Part shown: piece after piece, positions 8,028 to 16,510 of the stretch
How the letters are laid out: each line of letters starts with the position of its first letter
How positions within the stretch are numbered: the first letter of the stretch is position 1
The notes under the pieces: model-generated
What the model was told of the DNA's origin: nothing
The model's database searches: none
What the model saw: the letters and a program-made list of their open reading frames with translations, nothing else
Program-made: the position numbers and the translations under genes
Origin: Verrucomicrobiota bacterium
GTDB taxonomy: Bacteria; Verrucomicrobiota; Verrucomicrobiia; JADLBR01
Direction: 5' to 3'
DNA length: 48,683 bases
NCBI GenBank assembly: GCA_029560585.1
Contig: JAKQKQ010000217.1
Location: 1-48,683, forward strand

Positions 8028-8861
8028 TCATAACAGGCTCAGAAACTTCTGCACCAGTTCGTAGGCGCGCCGGGCCCGCATCTCTTGCGTGTCCACGTTG
8101 GGCGAGCCATGGAATTCCACCAGTTGTTGTGGGCCAAAAGCGTCCACGCTGGCGAATTTGTCCCGAAGAATTTCGATGGCTCTGGAAACATCGTTATCCC
8201 GCACCCGCCGTTTCCACTCCACCGCCAGTTTCTCCACCCCTCCGGGGAATTGCTCTGGACAATAACACAGGTCGTACGTGTCCTTCGGCTTGTCGCGACC
8301 GCCGATTGCGTGAGCTTTCATCACGAGAAAATCCGACAACGATGCGACGCGCAATCGCACTGTGTTTTTCGCGCCGCGGACATTTTGGCCGGGCAGACTG
8401 AGTTCGACGGGCGCATGAAACGCCACGCCACAACCGTCCGCTTGGAGGACTCGAAAATTCGAGAGTAGCTTTGGTTTGCTTTTCTTCAGCTTCAATTCCT
8501 TGGGCGCTAGAAACTCGAGCTCCACCTGCACCGGCCTCTCACCATCCTTCAGATCCACTTCTACGATCAACTGAAAGGCCTTCGCCCCTTTGCGATATCG
8601 CTTGGTGTCCAGCAACAACGTCAGCAACTCCGCGTAACGGCCCTCGCCCAGTTTCGCGGCATCCAGCGCGAGGTCCACGTCAATGCTCCCGATGTGTGGC
8701 TCGTCTGCGTCAGGCAGCAGGAGGTCTGGCGTCCATCCGCCCACGACTACGATGCAGTCCACAAACGACGCGAGCACTTGGCCCACGTCGACGAGCACGC
8801 GCCGCGCGGCTTCGACTTGCCTGTCGCTGTAATCTTGGCGCTGGCGAGGTTCGGGATTCAT
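8028..8861 (-). CDS. AbiEii-like nucleotidyltransferase (putative toxin)
   Basis: A 277-residue nucleotidyltransferase-fold protein. Residues 37-67 contain VVVGGWTPDLLL followed by SIDVDLALD, the GG...SxDxD active-site pattern (G41-G42, D61, D63) of AbiEii/AbiGii toxins. The second half (SDFLVMKAHAIGGRDKPKDTYDLCYC) matches the helical region conserved in these proteins. AbiEii-like toxins transfer nucleotides to RNA or protein targets and arrest growth, often on phage infection. The start overlaps the antitoxin stop by 4 bases (ATGA), so the pair is translationally coupled, antitoxin first. Local sequence is more A/T-rich than neighbouring glycosidases, consistent with acquisition. The target is unknown. 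Confidence 0.8.
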   Translation of the reverse strand: MNPEPRQRQDYSDRQVEAARRVLVDVGQVLASFVDCIVVVGGWTPDLLLPDADEPHIGSIDVDLALDAAKLGEGRYAELLTLLLDTKRYRKGAKAFQLIVEVDLKDGERPVQVELEFLAPKELKLKKSKPKLLSNFRVLQADGCGVAFHAPVELSLPGQNVRGAKNTVRLRVASLSDFLVMKAHAIGGRDKPKDTYDLCYCPEQFPGGVEKLAVEWKRRVRDNDVSRAIEILRDKFASVDAFGPQQLVEFHGSPNVDTQEMRARRAYELVQKFLSLL

Positions 8862-10003
8862 ACGTCCCGGGGGTCACGCTTCCATTCTGACTTCAACCGC
8901 TGCTCGAGCAGTGCCTCAGCTGCTTCTTCACCCCGCTCGCCGCAGTGCGATAAATCCACGTAGGTCTGTACCGCGTTCGTGCAGGGGATTCGCCTATCAC
9001 CGACAGCCCCGCCGTCCGCCAAATAGAAAACACCCTCGTCCTCGGGGATGAGAACCGCCAGATTCTCGCCCGAGTCCACCGGTTTGGCCTCCATCTGGCT
9101 GCAAAACGCGTCCTCTAGGCTGGCTGAGAGATAAAGCCATGTTTTCGTTTGGCGCACGTGGGGCGCCTGAAACTCAGCCGCCGAAAAAGCGGCATAGGCC
9201 ACATGGCCACCCGGAGTCAGCTTCAATCCCGCCAAAGCGGCGCGCAGTTTCTCTCCTCGCAATAGGGTGAAATAGCCCCGTCGCTCATGCCGGTCGAAGC
9301 GATAGGCGTCGCGCCACGCAAACAATAGTTTCAATGGATCGAGCAACCGGAAGCCGCCGTCCTCCTGCACCTCGATGAAGGCCTCGTCGCGCAAATGGCG
9401 CACGACCTTGTTCACGAGGCCAAGGCTCACGCCCGGCTGGCAGGCGCATTGCAGCTCCCGCTGCGTCCAGCGCCGCCCCACGTTTTGCGGGGCAAGCAAC
9501 GCGCGGAGAGTCCGCCCCGACTCCGCGGTGCCCAAGTTTGCCGAAGGCCTGGGCCGATGATGCACAGGATCATGTCCGCTGCGTTCGATGTAAAATCCCT
9601 GCGGCACGTCAAGCCGGCAGTTCCCCGCAAGATCGAACCAGCTCCATCCGTGCTCCGTGCACAAGTCAGCCATCCGTCCCGTGATCCAAGGGGCCGCCAG
9701 CACGGGCACGCGAGTGGTGCGTTTCCCGCCCTCGTGGAATCGGTTCGTGAGGCAAACGTAGGGGAAAAGCGAAGGACGCGGAAGATCCCTGCATTCGACC
9801 CACAGCTCGACCGTGTTCCCCGTCGGCAGTGGCACCTTGGCCAAGATGTCGAATGCGCGGCCAAAGGGTGCGGGATTCTGCGACACGTCCCAGTCTCGAA
9901 GCCACGACACTCCGCCGAGCAACTCGCGGAGTCTCGCCGCCAGCGCCCTCTCAAGCGCGCCACTCGAAAAGTTCTTATTGTTCATGATATTGAAGGAGTT
10001 CAC
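8858..10003 (-). CDS. AbiEi-like antitoxin / autoregulator with extended N-terminal domain
   Basis: A 381-residue protein (375 from the internal ATG at 9985). Residues 40-140 form an alpha/beta domain containing VELWVECRDLPRPS and WFDLAGNCRLDVP; the D...E-x-R arrangement recalls a degraded PD-(D/E)XK nuclease core, which is inference. Residues 163-222 form a winged helix (WTQRELQCACQPGVSLGLVNKVVRHL). Domain order and the WFDLAGN segment match proteins annotated as type IV AbiEi-family antitoxins, and the neighbour is an AbiEii-like nucleotidyltransferase. The start shown is GTG; ATG at 9985 is possible and both lie inside the large palindrome at 9979-10034, so the protein probably represses itself there. 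It is longer than the classical AbiEi antitoxin (about 200 residues). Confidence 0.75.
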   Translation of the reverse strand: MNSFNIMNNKNFSSGALERALAARLRELLGGVSWLRDWDVSQNPAPFGRAFDILAKVPLPTGNTVELWVECRDLPRPSLFPYVCLTNRFHEGGKRTTRVPVLAAPWITGRMADLCTEHGWSWFDLAGNCRLDVPQGFYIERSGHDPVHHRPRPSANLGTAESGRTLRALLAPQNVGRRWTQRELQCACQPGVSLGLVNKVVRHLRDEAFIEVQEDGGFRLLDPLKLLFAWRDAYRFDRHERRGYFTLLRGEKLRAALAGLKLTPGGHVAYAAFSAAEFQAPHVRQTKTWLYLSASLEDAFCSQMEAKPVDSGENLAVLIPEDEGVFYLADGGAVGDRRIPCTNAVQTYVDLSHCGERGEEAAEALLEQRLKSEWKRDPRDV

Positions 10004-10166: not shown

Positions 10167-10799
10167 CTACGCCGCCACGAGCTTTCGGGCGAGGTCGACG
10201 GCGGAGCCGGCGTCGGGGGAGAACCCGTCGGCGCCGATCTCCTCGGCGAAGGACTGGGTCACGGGCGCACCGCCGACGGCGACTTTGAGTTTCTGGAATC
10301 CTGCGTCGCGGAGGGCCTTCACGGTGGTGCGCATGGCGGGCATCGTGGTGGTGAGGAGTGCGGAGAGGCCCACGAGATCCGGGTTGTGCTCCTTGGCCGC
10401 GGCGATGAATTTCTCCGCGGGGACGTCCGTGCCGAGGTCGATGACATTGAAGTTGGCGCCGGTCCACATCATGGCGACGAGGTTCTTGCCGATATCGTGG
10501 AGGTCGCCCTGCACGGTGCCGATGAGGGCGGTGTGGGCGGGCGCGACGCCGGCTTTCACGAGGATGGGCTTGAGCAGCACCATGCTCTCTTTCATGGCGC
10601 GTGCGGCGATGAGCACCTCGGGCACGTAGATCTCGTTGTTCTTAAAGCGGCGGCCGACATCGTCCATCCCGCCTACGAGTGCGGCGAGGATATCGGCGGC
10701 GGGCAGCTGTTCGCCGATGGCGTTCTGGGTCTGTGCGACGGCGGTCTTGCGGTCGCCCTTCTTGATGGCTTCGGTGATGGCCTGGAGTGTGGGGTTCAT
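10167..10799 (-). CDS. Methyltransferase-associated corrinoid (B12-binding) protein
   Basis: A 210-residue cytoplasmic protein of the MtaC/MtbC/MttC type. Residues 1-85 form the helical cap domain. Residues 88-210 are the Rossmann-like cobalamin domain with the signature D99-x-H101-x-x-G104 in GDLHDIGKNL; His101 should be the lower axial cobalt ligand. The later GLSALLT and VGGAPV segments also fit the B12 fold. Length is typical. The protein would shuttle a methyl group between a substrate methyltransferase and an acceptor methyltransferase. The ATG is preceded by GAGGAG. It is the last gene of the run starting at 16510, which begins with a URO-D-type protein of the kind that works with such carriers. 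The methyl donor is unknown; glycan context suggests a methylated sugar (inference). Confidence 0.92.
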   Translation of the reverse strand: MNPTLQAITEAIKKGDRKTAVAQTQNAIGEQLPAADILAALVGGMDDVGRRFKNNEIYVPEVLIAARAMKESMVLLKPILVKAGVAPAHTALIGTVQGDLHDIGKNLVAMMWTGANFNVIDLGTDVPAEKFIAAAKEHNPDLVGLSALLTTTMPAMRTTVKALRDAGFQKLKVAVGGAPVTQSFAEEIGADGFSPDAGSAVDLARKLVAA

Positions 10800-10835
10800 G
10801 GGTGTCTCCTCTGTTCGTGGTTTATAATAGGTTTG

Positions 10836-13451
10836 TCAGGATCCTGCGGGCGGGTGGCCCTTGACGTCGGGGAGGTACTGGCGCAGCGCCTCGAGCTTGT
10901 TGGGAGGGACCAGCTCGTCCCATTTCAACAGAGGTTCGATCTCCGCGACCGGTCTCTTCGTTTTGAATCGCAGCGTCATGATCTGCTGCGGCCGCACGGG
11001 GAACTCGCAGGTCGGGGTGCCGCCGATGGATTTCGCGTGGGCCCCGGTCATGTCGGTGATTGCGGCGTCATCGTGCGGCAGCGACAGCGTGACGGACGCG
11101 TTGCCCGGAAGGCCGAGGCATTCGGCGAGACGCAGTTCGATGTATTGGCCCTCGCGGCGCATCGCCTCGACGATCATGTTATCGGAGGTCTGCACGAACG
11201 AGGCCGAATCGAAGCCCCTAACGCCGGTAGTCGCGATGGGCGGACAGTTGTACTCCCAAGCCATCTGAGGGATGCGGGCCTGGGGCCACGGCGCATCGTG
11301 CGCGACGAGCGCGTACGACAGCTGGTGCTTGCCCTTGCCGCTGAGCCATGAGTTGGGATAGCCGCGATATTTTTCCGAGGTGTTCAACAGGAAGATCACG
11401 GGAGTCCGGCCGGTCAGCTCGCGCCCGGACAGGCCGCGGTCCAGCAGCGCGATCCCGGTCCCTCCCGCCATCTGATAGTGCGACCACCGGACGGCCGGCA
11501 CGATGCCCTTGGTCCAACCGGTCAGCCCTCGGCCCGACGCGGGAATGGGGGGGACGGATGCCCACGCCCCATGCGAGAATCCGTACGGTATCCCGCGACG
11601 CACCTCCGCGATATCTTCGGCGAGCGGAAACTCCGCCACCACGACGGTCGGGTCGGGGATGTCATTCAGCTCGGTCTCGAAATCGATGCGCGGATAGTCG
11701 TCGTAGCAGCGCACGGTGCGGAACATCGCGCCGCCGCCGATGAATTCGGAGCGAATCTGGAGGGTCGTCGCAAACTCACCGCGCTGGGCGGTGATCGTGG
11801 GCTTGAGGGCATTGGAATTGGCGATGCTCTCCCTGTCCTCTCGGTTCGCCATGTGGTCGCCGGTGTTGGGATTGGGTTTCTTGGATTTTTCGGCGACGAT
11901 GACATTCGCGGGGCCGCCGAGCACCTCGCGCTTGGAGGGTTTCAATTTCAGGCTGGTGATGGCGCCGGTGGCGGGATCGATGCGCAGGGAATAGAACTGG
12001 GTCTCGATGGTAGCCGGCGGGGGGATGTCGGCGGGCTTATCCGCCGGGGCGGGGGCACCGATGCCAATGGAGGGGAGGGTTGGGCGGCATAGGCCGTGGC
12101 CGGGGATCTCGACCGGATCGTTGCGCTCCCAGTTGAGCGGGTTGAAGAGGGCGACGTCCTCGCCCTTGCCGCGCAGGGCGCGGATCGCCGACGCGGAGGT
12201 ATCGGCCGCGGTTTTCTCGACCCATTCGAAACGGTCTTTGGCATCCCACGAGGTGGGGTGCTCAAAAACCATGCCGCCGGCCGCGCCCCAGAGCGTGTTG
12301 CGGTCCATGTTGAGGCACATGAGCAACCACGCGTGGTAGAGGGGCATGACGGGATAGGCGAACCCGCCCTTCAGGCTAGCGATGGTACCGAGCATTTCCG
12401 CGGCCTGCAGGTCTTGCTCGCACCGCCGGAACCAGGTCTTGACCCGCGGGTTTTGGATCCAGAACGAATTGTAGTTGAAGGCGGTGCCGCCGCGCATCGT
12501 CGTCAGCGGAATTGAACCGGACCTGATGCCCGGCAGCACCGCGTCGAGATACCTGCCCGGCGTGGAGAATTCCACGTCTAACTGGGGCGCGAGCTGCTTG
12601 AACTGCCGGAGGAACTCCGCCGGATAGCCTTTGCACAGGGGTGCGAGGTTGTAGTCGCCACTTCCTCCGAAGACCAGCACCGGCGCGCCCGCGGGCATGC
12701 GCCTCGGTTCACCGCCGGAGGGCCGATAGTTCTTCTGAATCTCCTCGACGGTCAGCGGCCTCGGATCTGCGCGGAGCTGGATGTCCTTGAGGATTGCGTC
12801 CAGCGCTTTCTCGTCGAGAGGCGACGGGGCCTTGAAGAGCTCTCGCCAATCGGCGTAGGCCCCTGGGGCGACGGCGAGCGAACGCGCGCCATCGGGCGAC
12901 TCGGCCCAATGGATCGCGTAGCCGGTGGGGTTGTGGCGGCAGTAGGCGAACCCGTCGAGGCCGAGGCCGGCGGCGATCTGCGCCATCTGCTCGTGCATGC
13001 CGGTCACGTCGATCATCCAGGCCAGCCGTGGCCGGAAGCCGAGCACCTTCTGCTGCCAGCGCAGGCCCTCGATGCCGCATTTCACCAGCGCCTCGCCCCC
13101 GGAGAGATTGATGGTTGGCTCGAGGAAGAACGCATTGCATGGCTCGGCGCGCCCCTCGCGGATCCGCGCTTTCAGTTCCTCGAAGCGCTCCGGCCGGAAT
13201 GCCAGGATCGCCATCATGTTGTTCACCTCGGAGATCGCGAAACCGTAGGTCGCGTCGTCGCGCACGCGGTCCAGGTGGTCGAGGTAAGAATTGGCGCAGT
13301 AGTTTCTTTCCACCGACCAGTTCGCCAGCCAGCCGCAACTCGCCGGATGGAAGTTTGGCACCACGATCACGCGGTTCGTCGGCTCGGCGGCCGTGGCCGC
13401 ACAAAGCCACTGGAGGCAGAGCGACAGCAATAGAGATGGAGACGTTCTCAT
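10836..13451 (-). CDS. Exported GH38-type glycoside hydrolase with altered zinc motif
   Basis: An 871-residue protein with a signal peptide (about 1-22) and a GH38 N-terminal domain like alpha-mannosidases: FHPASCGWLANW (34-45), FAISEVNNMMAIL (71-83), EPTINLSGGEALVKCGIEGLRW (111-132) and the nucleophile region AWMIDVTG with D148. In classical GH38 enzymes the first zinc ligands lie in an H-x-D-P-G-W motif; here H35 remains but the Asp position is Ala (H-P-A-S-C-G-W). The mid helical region (about 330-440) and C-terminal beta-sandwich (about 500-870) follow. It therefore belongs to a divergent, uncharacterised branch whose metal dependence and substrate are open. It starts 7 bases after the GH29-like stop and is followed 36 bases later by the corrinoid protein. 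Confidence 0.82.
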   Translation of the reverse strand: MRTSPSLLLSLCLQWLCAATAAEPTNRVIVVPNFHPASCGWLANWSVERNYCANSYLDHLDRVRDDATYGFAISEVNNMMAILAFRPERFEELKARIREGRAEPCNAFFLEPTINLSGGEALVKCGIEGLRWQQKVLGFRPRLAWMIDVTGMHEQMAQIAAGLGLDGFAYCRHNPTGYAIHWAESPDGARSLAVAPGAYADWRELFKAPSPLDEKALDAILKDIQLRADPRPLTVEEIQKNYRPSGGEPRRMPAGAPVLVFGGSGDYNLAPLCKGYPAEFLRQFKQLAPQLDVEFSTPGRYLDAVLPGIRSGSIPLTTMRGGTAFNYNSFWIQNPRVKTWFRRCEQDLQAAEMLGTIASLKGGFAYPVMPLYHAWLLMCLNMDRNTLWGAAGGMVFEHPTSWDAKDRFEWVEKTAADTSASAIRALRGKGEDVALFNPLNWERNDPVEIPGHGLCRPTLPSIGIGAPAPADKPADIPPPATIETQFYSLRIDPATGAITSLKLKPSKREVLGGPANVIVAEKSKKPNPNTGDHMANREDRESIANSNALKPTITAQRGEFATTLQIRSEFIGGGAMFRTVRCYDDYPRIDFETELNDIPDPTVVVAEFPLAEDIAEVRRGIPYGFSHGAWASVPPIPASGRGLTGWTKGIVPAVRWSHYQMAGGTGIALLDRGLSGRELTGRTPVIFLLNTSEKYRGYPNSWLSGKGKHQLSYALVAHDAPWPQARIPQMAWEYNCPPIATTGVRGFDSASFVQTSDNMIVEAMRREGQYIELRLAECLGLPGNASVTLSLPHDDAAITDMTGAHAKSIGGTPTCEFPVRPQQIMTLRFKTKRPVAEIEPLLKWDELVPPNKLEALRQYLPDVKGHPPAGS

Positions 13452-13458
13452 GGGTGGG

Positions 13459-14670
13459 TCACTCCCGGGTTCCTTCCTTTAGGGTCAGCAGCAGTTGGAA
13501 GAAGTTGTCGGGGATGTGCCCGTTTTCGGCGGGCGGCACGTCCCACGTGATGACGCCGCCGCGGTCGTTGAGGTATTTCGTGTAGGCCAGGAGCATCTCC
13601 GCCGGAAAGCGCGGCTTGCCCCGGCCCCAATAATCGCCGAGGAACGTAAGGACGTGGTATTGCGCGCCGGCGACGGTGCCACCGACAGGCTTCGCCCACT
13701 TGCCTGCATCGACGCCCACGGGGAATGCGTCGGCGATCTCTCCGGCGGTGTAATCCTCACACGGCGCGTGTTTGATCACGGGCACTTTCACGCCGGGGTT
13801 GAAACACACGATCGCATCCGGGTTGCCGGCGCGCATCGCATCGGCGAAGCTCTGGAAATTCGGCGGGTCCTTGTGCCGGTACATGACGTCGGCGTTGTAG
13901 GCCCCGTCGATCCACCAGCCATGCACGTCCTTGCCCCAGCGCAGGGACCACTCGCGTATGACGGCTTCCCAATTGCGCTGGAATTCGGTCAGGCGCTCAT
14001 CGACGCCGGGCTGCGGGGTGAAACTATCGGGCTTGAAGCCAACGCGGCGGGGATCCCACGGCGGCGTGCAGCGCAGCCGCTCGATGGCCTGCCGGTCCTG
14101 CGCGGGGGCCATGGACGTGAAATAGACCATCGTGCGGATGCCGTGCGGTTTCAGGGCCGCGGCGATGTCCGCCACCAGGTCGCGCCGCGAACAGCGGCCC
14201 GGCGCGCGGCCGACGAGCCGGTCGTAGGTGCCGTTGGGCGAGAGATAGAAACCGCTGTTCTGGCCGAGGGTGATGAAAAAGTAACCCGCCCGGATTTCTT
14301 CCAACTGGCGCGCCAGGCCCGCGACATCGAAGGCGTCGATGCGTCGATTCCACCGTTCGGTGTCCATGTCGGCCGCCTCGGTGGCCGACGCGGGCGAAGC
14401 GAGATAGTGGAAGAAGACGCCCCACTTCGCATCGCGGAACCACGCGGTTCGCGCCTGCGACGAGGGCGCGGGGTCGGGAGTTTCGGCGGAGCGCGCGGGG
14501 CACTGCCCTTGTAGAAACATGGACAGTGCGACCAGTCTGAGAATAGGAATCCTGTAGGCGGGGCGGCCCTGCCGGGCCGCGGGGGACGAGAGGCGGCTAA
14601 AGTCGGCCGCCCTGCGGATTCGACCGCCATCTCTGACGGATGACACGGGCTGCGACTGAAATATTCTCAT
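13459..14670 (-). CDS. GH29-like alpha-L-fucosidase-related protein
   Basis: A 403-residue protein with a GH29-like barrel: WFRDAKWGVFFHY (77-89), YFFITLGQNSGFYLSPN in place of the usual KHHDGF block, and GWWIDGAYN with D255 at the nucleophile position. It looks like a distant relative of alpha-L-fucosidases, so activity is uncertain. The ATG overlaps the previous stop by 4 bases (ATGA). Residues 17-40 are translated from a GC-rich double hairpin (plus strand about 14559-14612), so the natural N-terminus may instead begin near the hydrophobic segment IPILRLVALSMFL (41-53), which would serve as the signal peptide. Gene order places it between the small sugar-binding-like protein and the GH38-type protein. 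Confidence 0.72.
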   Translation of the reverse strand: MRIFQSQPVSSVRDGGRIRRAADFSRLSSPAARQGRPAYRIPILRLVALSMFLQGQCPARSAETPDPAPSSQARTAWFRDAKWGVFFHYLASPASATEAADMDTERWNRRIDAFDVAGLARQLEEIRAGYFFITLGQNSGFYLSPNGTYDRLVGRAPGRCSRRDLVADIAAALKPHGIRTMVYFTSMAPAQDRQAIERLRCTPPWDPRRVGFKPDSFTPQPGVDERLTEFQRNWEAVIREWSLRWGKDVHGWWIDGAYNADVMYRHKDPPNFQSFADAMRAGNPDAIVCFNPGVKVPVIKHAPCEDYTAGEIADAFPVGVDAGKWAKPVGGTVAGAQYHVLTFLGDYWGRGKPRFPAEMLLAYTKYLNDRGGVITWDVPPAENGHIPDNFFQLLLTLKEGTRE

Positions 14671-15122
14671 CGGTTTGCGTTCTCCGGGCTCTCTTTGGTG
14701 GCCCTCAAGGTGAGGGCGTGAAATTGCATAAGCGTGGAACCGAAGGCGACGCGCTTGGGTTTCAGCGCGATGGTACCGCCCTGGTTCCAGGGCACAACGA
14801 TGGCCCCGAGGCTGAATTCTTTGAAGCCGTTTGTGCCTCCGGTGCCCTGGACCATCCCGGACAATGTGCGGTCCCCAATCTGGATCACGAATTCATTGTC
14901 GATGGATTTTGGATCCGCACTGTACGTGATGGCGGCCTCGTACGTCGCCGGCATCGGCGCGCGGAATGCCCATGACACCCAGTCCTGCAAGTTGGTCCAG
15001 GAGCCGATGTGATCGTGGGCGCGGGTCTGCAGGCTCAGGCTCTTCCGCCGCGCGCCGCGGCAGGACAGGAACACCATGGCGCACAGAAGAATGACGTTCT
15101 GGCGGGGCCTTTCGATTCTCAT
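14667..15122 (-). CDS. Small exported carbohydrate-binding-like protein
   Basis: A 151-residue protein starting MRIERPRQ with a hydrophobic segment ending in FLSC (C21), perhaps a lipoprotein signal, although the residues before the cysteine are not canonical. The mature part contains IGSWTNLQDWVSWAFRAPMPATYEAAITYS, which matches the beta-sandwich often found at the ends of fucosidase-like enzymes in PVC-type bacteria (inference from pattern). Here it stands alone as its own gene. The frame is open upstream to 15311, but the ATG at 15122 fits a signal sequence. Its stop overlaps the GH29-like start, so the two may form a split enzyme/binding-module pair. Confidence 0.6.
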   Translation of the reverse strand: MRIERPRQNVILLCAMVFLSCRGARRKSLSLQTRAHDHIGSWTNLQDWVSWAFRAPMPATYEAAITYSADPKSIDNEFVIQIGDRTLSGMVQGTGGTNGFKEFSLGAIVVPWNQGGTIALKPKRVAFGSTLMQFHALTLRATKESPENANR

Positions 15123-15204
15123 GCGACCACTCAGGTGTCGCGTTTGGTCCCGAGACATGCGTCGCGGGCGCCGGTCGGCCGGCGCACCACACGAGCCGGT
15201 CGGA

Positions 15205-15233
15205 CGCGGACGCCGAGGCCGGCGTCCCTCCCC
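15205..15233 (+). repeat. Partial copy of a dispersed intergenic repeat
   Basis: This 29-base stretch matches the core of the 73-base repeat seen at 40137-40209 and, inverted, at 42679-42751, including the shared GGCGTCCCTCCC. A shorter match (14 bases) lies at 16915-16928. It sits in the 185-base gap between the URO-D gene and the small binding protein, so it may affect the transcript of that operon. Confidence 0.5.
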
Positions 15234-15307
15234 GTATTCAATCGGGATGGTGGACATGTCGGGATTCATCTGAGACACCGCACGGGTTCCAAAGGATGGG
15301 CGCGATC

Positions 15308-16510
15308 TCACTGGACCCCATCGAACTCGCCGAGGCGCAGGGGATATCTGCCGAATTCGCGCACCAGTTTCACGATGTAGTCGTACGTAGCGCCAGACAC
15401 GCTGCTGCTGACGGAGTGGTCGGATTGGAAGATGAAACCGCCGCCCTTGGCCGCGTTGAGTTTTCGCAGCACCTCGCGGCGGATGGCGTCGCGGTCGCCC
15501 GTTTCCCAGACCTGCATGTCGCTGTTGCCGCAGAAGGCCATCCGGTGGTCGTATTTCCGCCGCAGGTCAACCGCGTCCATGCCGGCCTTGACCTCCAGCG
15601 GGTTGTAGGCATCGACGCCCATCTCGATGTAATCGGGAAATATCGCGTGGACGTTGCCGCATCCGTGGTAGATGACCGGCAGCCCGCGCGCGTGCACGCG
15701 CTCCACCATCGCGGCGACCCAGGGCTTGAAGTACTTTCGCCAATAGGCCGGAGACATGAAGGTGCCGTGTTTGTAGGCGACATCACCCCAGATCACGAAG
15801 CCATCGAGCAGGCCCTCGCCCGCTTCCAGTTCCGCCTCGGCCATGGCCAGATAGAAGGCCCCGATGCGGTTGATGGCCGCGCCCATGCGCTCCGGCTCCT
15901 CGCCCATCCAGAGCATGGCGTTCTCCTGCCCCACGAGGCGCGTGAGGCACTCGCTGCACTCCAGCATGCTCCCGTAGACGGGGAAATCCGGGTGCAGGGA
16001 TTTCACCGTTTCGATCCACGCGGGGCTGTTGCGCTGGAAGCCGTCGCCCACGCCGGCGATCTGGTTGTCGCCCGCGGAAAAAAATCGCCGCCTGTCGCGA
16101 GGGTCATCAAATTCGGCGGCCTCTAGTTTCTCAAAGGTATCGGTCTCCCACGACCGCATCTCGGGCATCGGGAGCGCGAAGAACTTATGCATCACCGCGC
16201 CGAACCCCGTGCGCACGATGACCTCGTCAGGGGTTTCCTTTAACGTCTCGAAGGATCGGATCCACGGGTCCATGTTTGGGACCGTCACGATCCAGTCGAG
16301 GTCGTAGTGGTAATGAGGATTCGCGTCCTCGGCCAGGCCCAGCTCCTTACGCCAGCGCTTGGTAAAGCCGCCCCAGAAGAAATCGCTGATGGGCACGCGG
16401 TCCGGTTCCTCGTGCCGCAGCGCCTTGTTCATGCGCTCGAGTTTCTTGAGGGTGCTTTCTTTCCTGGCGGCCCGCCCGGCCACCTTTCCAGTCGTATTGA
16501 ACATGCCCAT
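15308..16510 (-). CDS. URO-D-family corrinoid-dependent methyltransferase
   Basis: A 400-residue cytoplasmic protein of the uroporphyrinogen-decarboxylase superfamily. H282-x-C284 (YHGCGN) and C327 (AFCGNSD) match the zinc-binding His/Cys pattern of the MtaA/MtbA methyltransferase branch, rather than a haem-pathway decarboxylase. Opening (LERMNKALRHEEPDRVPISDFFWGG) and ending (GGGFIFQSDHSV) are family-typical. The ATG follows GGAGG by 7 bases. It is first in the minus-strand run that ends with the corrinoid protein at 10167-10799, its probable methyl-carrier partner. Whether it removes methyl from the substrate or passes it on cannot be read. No haem-synthesis gene is nearby. Confidence 0.85.
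   Translation of the reverse strand: MGMFNTTGKVAGRAARKESTLKKLERMNKALRHEEPDRVPISDFFWGGFTKRWRKELGLAEDANPHYHYDLDWIVTVPNMDPWIRSFETLKETPDEVIVRTGFGAVMHKFFALPMPEMRSWETDTFEKLEAAEFDDPRDRRRFFSAGDNQIAGVGDGFQRNSPAWIETVKSLHPDFPVYGSMLECSECLTRLVGQENAMLWMGEEPERMGAAINRIGAFYLAMAEAELEAGEGLLDGFVIWGDVAYKHGTFMSPAYWRKYFKPWVAAMVERVHARGLPVIYHGCGNVHAIFPDYIEMGVDAYNPLEVKAGMDAVDLRRKYDHRMAFCGNSDMQVWETGDRDAIRREVLRKLNAAKGGGFIFQSDHSVSSSVSGATYDYIVKLVREFGRYPLRLGEFDGVQ

Follow-up and report, generated by a model that had tools for sequence, protein, structure and literature searches.

Among the closest described relatives of the system considered here are the O-demethylases of methoxylated aromatics, whose substrate:corrinoid methyltransferases (MTI; OdmB, VdmB, MtvB and MtoB) belong to the URO-D superfamily and act with a corrinoid carrier, a second methyltransferase (MTII) and a RACo-type activator. 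The locus analyzed here has in common with them the URO-D-superfamily protein, the corrinoid carrier and a RACo-type activator, but it lies in a sugar-catabolism neighbourhood, the activator is encoded on another contig, and an MtrH-like MTII was not found in a PF00809 search of the draft genome (95.7% complete). The methylcobamide:coenzyme M methyltransferases MtaA and MtbA likewise have the URO-D fold and an H-x-C motif, but our protein has a His in place of their third Cys, and its expected role is substrate demethylation, not thiol methylation. The chloromethane methyltransferase CdmB is also a member of the superfamily whose closest solved fold is a uroporphyrinogen decarboxylase, but it is metal-free and haloalkane-specific (PMC13222342), whereas the protein described here has a conserved H-x-C...H site. 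Bacterial MtaA/MtbA homologues are encoded with a corrinoid protein, as here, in the Type 1 mlp gene clusters, which were proposed to act on methyl-sulfur/selenium compounds in a text that does not mention sugars (PMC10418091). Methylated sugars resist degradation, and the sole enzymatic removal of their methyl groups that we found described is the oxidative demethylation of 6-O-methyl-D-galactose by a P450 monooxygenase, which releases formaldehyde (PMC8360166); that enzyme likewise demethylates a sugar in the course of polysaccharide degradation, but the corrinoid route proposed below would be independent of oxygen and would make the methyl group available to C1 metabolism. In the open-access literature, a scope outside which most subscription papers fall, we found no account of a corrinoid sugar demethylase, and a study of methyl-pentose specialists (PMC8857213) contains no mention of corrinoids, uroporphyrinogen decarboxylase or demethylation.

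The DNA analyzed (the window, 48,683 nucleotides) is the entire contig C66 of a 7.06-Mb Verrucomicrobiota draft genome in 336 contigs. Open reading frames and Pfam profile matches confirm the five minus-strand genes of the preliminary description in the order it gave (Table 1), as well as its three tight junctions on the hydrolase side (a 4-base overlap, 7 bases and 36 bases). The 185-base gap that it placed after the URO-D gene is correct if translation of the small protein begins at its lipoprotein-like signal (near 15122), but not for the longest open reading frame, whose GTG start overlaps the URO-D stop codon. Purine-rich ribosome-binding sites precede the URO-D gene (GGAGGAATCACC-ATG) and the corrinoid gene (GAGGAGACACCC-ATG); promoter and terminator scans gave results no better than shuffles.

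Table 1. Genes of the URO-D/corrinoid cluster in the window
Product	Coordinates	Strand	Evidence and remarks
URO-D-fold methyltransferase, proposed substrate:corrinoid methyltransferase (MTI)	15308..16510	-	PF01208 4.8e-22; conservation; AlphaFold model
Small beta-rich protein, probably exported (predicted)	14667..15311	-	Likely start near 15122; weak DUF7024 match; low-confidence model
GH29-like protein (alpha-L-fucosidase family)	13459..14670	-	PF01120; PDB 9pnj match
GH38-related protein, non-canonical active site (FHPASCGW, FLEPTINLSGGEA)	10836..13451	-	PF01074 1.4e-21; motif comparison
Corrinoid carrier protein (MtgC/MtbC-like), DLHDIG	10167..10799	-	PF02310 1.7e-26, PF02607 3.8e-17; PDB 1y80

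The best PDB sequence matches of the URO-D protein are a uroporphyrinogen decarboxylase (4wsh) and a methyltransferase (4ay7), with which it has little beyond the fold in common. Its AlphaFold model (pLDDT 87) superposes on MtbA and uroporphyrinogen decarboxylase structures alike (Z 25.6–27.9), so the fold alone cannot choose between them. It is not HemE, since it lacks the QAGR motif that is the HemE signature and scores 27 bits against an equivalog score of 303; a separate HemE (422 bits) is encoded elsewhere in this genome, which contains about 20 URO-D family matches in all. The preliminary description had assigned it to the MtaA/MtbA type with an HxC/C zinc motif. The HxC part of that motif is real (H282-x-C284), and each of the two residues is conserved in 46 of the 47 rows of an ortholog alignment; the 97 invariant columns of a 28-row alignment include both, together with C327, D364, H365, W241, G242 and D243. 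However, when the protein is aligned with a paralog from contig C98 whose site reads H-x-C...C, the invariant His H365 stands where MtaA/MtbA have their third Cys ligand, and the invariant C327 sits elsewhere. As the profile search gave only weak matches to MtaA/MtbA models (TIGR01463, 32.8 bits against a cut-off of 235.4) and the H-x-C motif is without the third Cys, membership in the MtaA/MtbA/CmuA family was rejected. By residue conservation, H282, C284 and H365 are candidate metal ligands.

Orthologs of this protein form a tight group (46 further loci, 52–82% identity), mostly from Verrucomicrobiota and Planctomycetota; the named close matches are mostly Verrucomicrobiota MAGs. A sugar mutarotase gene of the rhaM-like family PF05336 lies within 6 kb of the ortholog in 29 of the 46 loci, in 28 of them on the same strand, and an L-rhamnose permease gene (RhaT) lies nearby in 18, always on the same strand. 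The 59 control loci have a similar total length and were not drawn at random, most being comparable regions with other URO-D, corrinoid or RACo genes; they contain no RhaT gene and one PF05336 gene in 800 kb, itself beside a URO-D paralog; class relatives have on average fewer than one PF05336 gene per genome. The window itself has neither a mutarotase nor a RhaT gene, and a second operon of the same genome comprises genes for a GH29 protein, a URO-D paralog and a rhaM-like mutarotase (G000:C233, L143:4942-8234). In a RhaM tree the ortholog-linked mutarotases are not one clade (6 label changes), but they are split from canonical RhaM by a 100/100 branch. Since they stand apart from canonical RhaM, and since the linked clade is also found in RACo-negative genomes, the sugar is not fixed by this association, and "rhamnose" is to be taken as a guide, not as proof.

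The preliminary description would have been undermined by an adjacency unique to this genome, but the same pairings recur in other loci. An ortholog of the GH38-like gene is near that of the URO-D gene in 6 of the 46 loci, and the GH38-corrinoid pair is kept in a sister species (80% and 90% identity). A corrinoid gene is near the ortholog in 4 of the 46 (two of them partial), and is not adjacent in most. Ortholog, mutarotase and corrinoid genes occur together in two Chloroflexota loci. One of these (L126) has the order URO-D, URO-D, mutarotase, URO-D ortholog, corrinoid, URO-D; the other (L125) is a 16-kb same-strand stretch with genes for a pterin-binding methyltransferase (PF00809), MetF, a LacI-URO-D fusion, a URO-D protein, a mutarotase and the ortholog, followed by those for a creatininase-family protein, the solute-binding protein of a sugar ABC transporter, two permeases, the corrinoid protein and a further URO-D protein. 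When 301 Chloroflexota genomes were searched at E <= 1e-80, close orthologs turned up in none except the query's own genome, which makes this cluster a rare one in that phylum. The fusion of a LacI-type regulator to a URO-D domain in one frame (L125:5966-8188 and L132:2501-4600) is possibly a methyl-substrate sensor. L132 and the closely similar L131 are labelled Betaproteobacteria and Spirochaetes, respectively, and one of these labels is probably wrong, as MAG binning has its limits.

The DxHxxG motif noted earlier in the corrinoid protein is DLHDIG at residue 99, and the protein matches PDB 1y80 at 4.7e-54, although it falls below the cut-offs of the curated MtgC/MtbC-type models (MtgC_2, 193.5 against 370; TIGR02370, 167.8 against 215.3). 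The reductive activator that had been listed as missing is in fact present, as the sole RACo of the genome is encoded on contig C98 (2.4e-76). There it adjoins a second corrinoid gene, 83% identical to that of the window, and beside it are genes for an MtbA-like URO-D protein (the H-x-C...C paralog) and a PocR-AraC regulator, followed by one for a GH106 rhamnosidase; two copies of the corrinoid gene have been kept in each of the two species of this genus. In family searches, on which our genome-wide statistics are based, RACo was present in 35 of the 35 named ortholog-holding genomes searched, at least two of which (those of L090 and L101) seem also to be among a set of 57 relatives, mostly at the class level. 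Across these 57, RACo, stand-alone corrinoid proteins and URO-D relatives co-occur: RACo is found in 24, and all 12 genomes with the ortholog (Fisher 4e-6, kinship ignored) and all 23 with a stand-alone corrinoid protein (the Fisher values again ignoring kinship) are RACo-positive. Genes for a DUF1638 protein are repeatedly found next to those for RACo and corrinoid proteins (L192, L194, L200, L215 and others).

The two PF00809 matches of the draft genome are on C272, inside a 1256-amino acid frame that also has S-methyl_trans and B12-binding domains (MetH-like), and on C141, which is taken as DHPS. Candidate methyl acceptors here are the C98 URO-D protein, a homocysteine methyltransferase on C85, and MetH; judged by its motif, the C98 paralog is a better candidate for an MtaA/MtbA-like thiol-acceptor role than the URO-D protein of the window. 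Because this genome also encodes one MtaB (on C323) and a second corrinoid protein, the carrier of the window may be shared with other methyltransferases. In relatives the corrinoid gene sits with genes for MetF and a pterin-binding protein, with a homocysteine methyltransferase gene, or with MtaB; its pairing with MtaB in L235, L208, L210 and L222, in some of them together with an MtbA-like URO-D gene, suggests methanol use.

The GH29-like protein scores above the cut-off of its family model (PF01120, 36.6 bits against 25.2) and matches the alpha-L-fucosidase PDB 9pnj (3e-12). Its small neighbour is at most putatively binding-like, given a sub-threshold DUF7024 match and a poor single-sequence model (pLDDT 43). 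The GH38-type protein does match that family, but it is not a canonical alpha-mannosidase, since both the zinc-binding and the nucleophile Asp are absent. HIDS and VESD of a solved alpha-mannosidase are HPAS and LEPT in 12 of 12 members of its family, conserved other residues thus replacing the two aspartates throughout; the FHPASCGW and FLEPTINLSGGEA motifs occur at these places in the window protein and in L089, L090, L093, L104, L107 and L116. It is a member of a conserved GH38-related family, and these motifs make GH38 activity doubtful.

Conserved context and co-occurrence tie the URO-D orthologs to corrinoid chemistry and to deoxyhexose catabolism, strongly so by the standards of genomic evidence, and the simplest way to connect the two is an O-methyl deoxyhexose substrate. 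MtaB-type enzymes split an alkyl C-O bond with the help of zinc, so such a demethylation is chemically reasonable. We think it rather probable that the URO-D protein is a substrate-specific MTI, with a methylated deoxyhexose as its methyl donor and the corrinoid carrier as the acceptor of the O-methyl group. What we infer of the reaction, of its substrate, of the direction of methyl flow and of the last acceptor is as follows. An O-methyl 6-deoxyhexose (most likely; such as O-methyl-rhamnose or O-methyl-fucose) would be freed by glycosidases and taken up; a metal bound at H282, C284 and H365 would activate the ether oxygen, the methyl group would be taken over by the cob(I)alamin of the corrinoid protein, and the free sugar would enter deoxyhexose catabolism. 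RACo would re-reduce any cob(II)alamin. In cases such as L125, with a pterin-binding methyltransferase and MetF, tetrahydrofolate would be the next methyl acceptor; in the present genome this would probably be a thiol such as homocysteine, methylated by the MtbA-like URO-D protein, the homocysteine methyltransferase or MetH. Thus the central idea of the preliminary description, corrinoid methyl transfer tied to sugar catabolism, is upheld by the mutarotase, RhaT and glycosidase context and by RACo, but it has lost the missing activator, the MtaA/MtbA-like URO-D protein and a secure GH38 activity, and its carrier may not be a dedicated one. The wider proposal, that corrinoid-dependent, oxygen-independent O-demethylation of methylated deoxyhexoses occurs mainly in Verrucomicrobiota and Planctomycetota, with several substrate-specific URO-D methyltransferases served by a common carrier and by a single activator whose gene lies elsewhere in the genome, we regard as evenly balanced. 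If true, it would account for what a large set of URO-D paralogs does, and the substrate that it predicts can be checked with purified protein.

Three other explanations deserve consideration. The known URO-D-type MTIs near this chemistry (MtvB, OdmB, VdmB and MtoB) use methoxylated aromatics (PMC13222342), and the pair might demethylate a methyl ether that is not a sugar, such as the methoxylated aromatic aglycone of a rhamnose- or fucose-bearing glycoside, the sugar genes handling the sugar part only. We consider this unlikely, as the annotated neighbours include no genes of aromatic catabolism, and those that recur are the sugar permease, mutarotase, ABC sugar transporter and glycosidases. 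No more probable is a role of the ortholog in deoxyhexose catabolism without methyl transfer, the corrinoid gene of the window being a coincidental neighbour that serves methanol use (through MtaB) or other methyltransferases. The absence of an adjacent corrinoid gene at most ortholog loci, the MtaB gene on C323, and the frequent pairing of the corrinoid gene with MtaB, MetF or homocysteine methyltransferase genes in relatives all favour such a coincidence, but the constant presence of RACo in the ortholog genomes, the Chloroflexota clusters and the conserved H-x-C site argue against it. Finally, the URO-D protein could itself be the methyl-accepting second methyltransferase (MtaA/MtbA-like, with a thiol acceptor), its partner substrate enzyme lying elsewhere, as its MtbA-type fold and weak MtaA/MtbA model matches might suggest; the invariant His at the third zinc-ligand position, a score far under the MtaA/CmuA cut-off and the better fit of the C98 paralog to this role make this very improbable, and we prefer the MTI assignment.

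The window around the cluster is a polysaccharide-degradation island, with genes for five sulfatases, two more GH29 proteins, GH1 and GH5 proteins, and heparinase-like, deacetylase-like and beta-helix proteins. Two genes with weak similarity to AbiEii/AbiEi (type IV toxin-antitoxin) lie immediately downstream of the corrinoid gene, at window positions 8028-10003.
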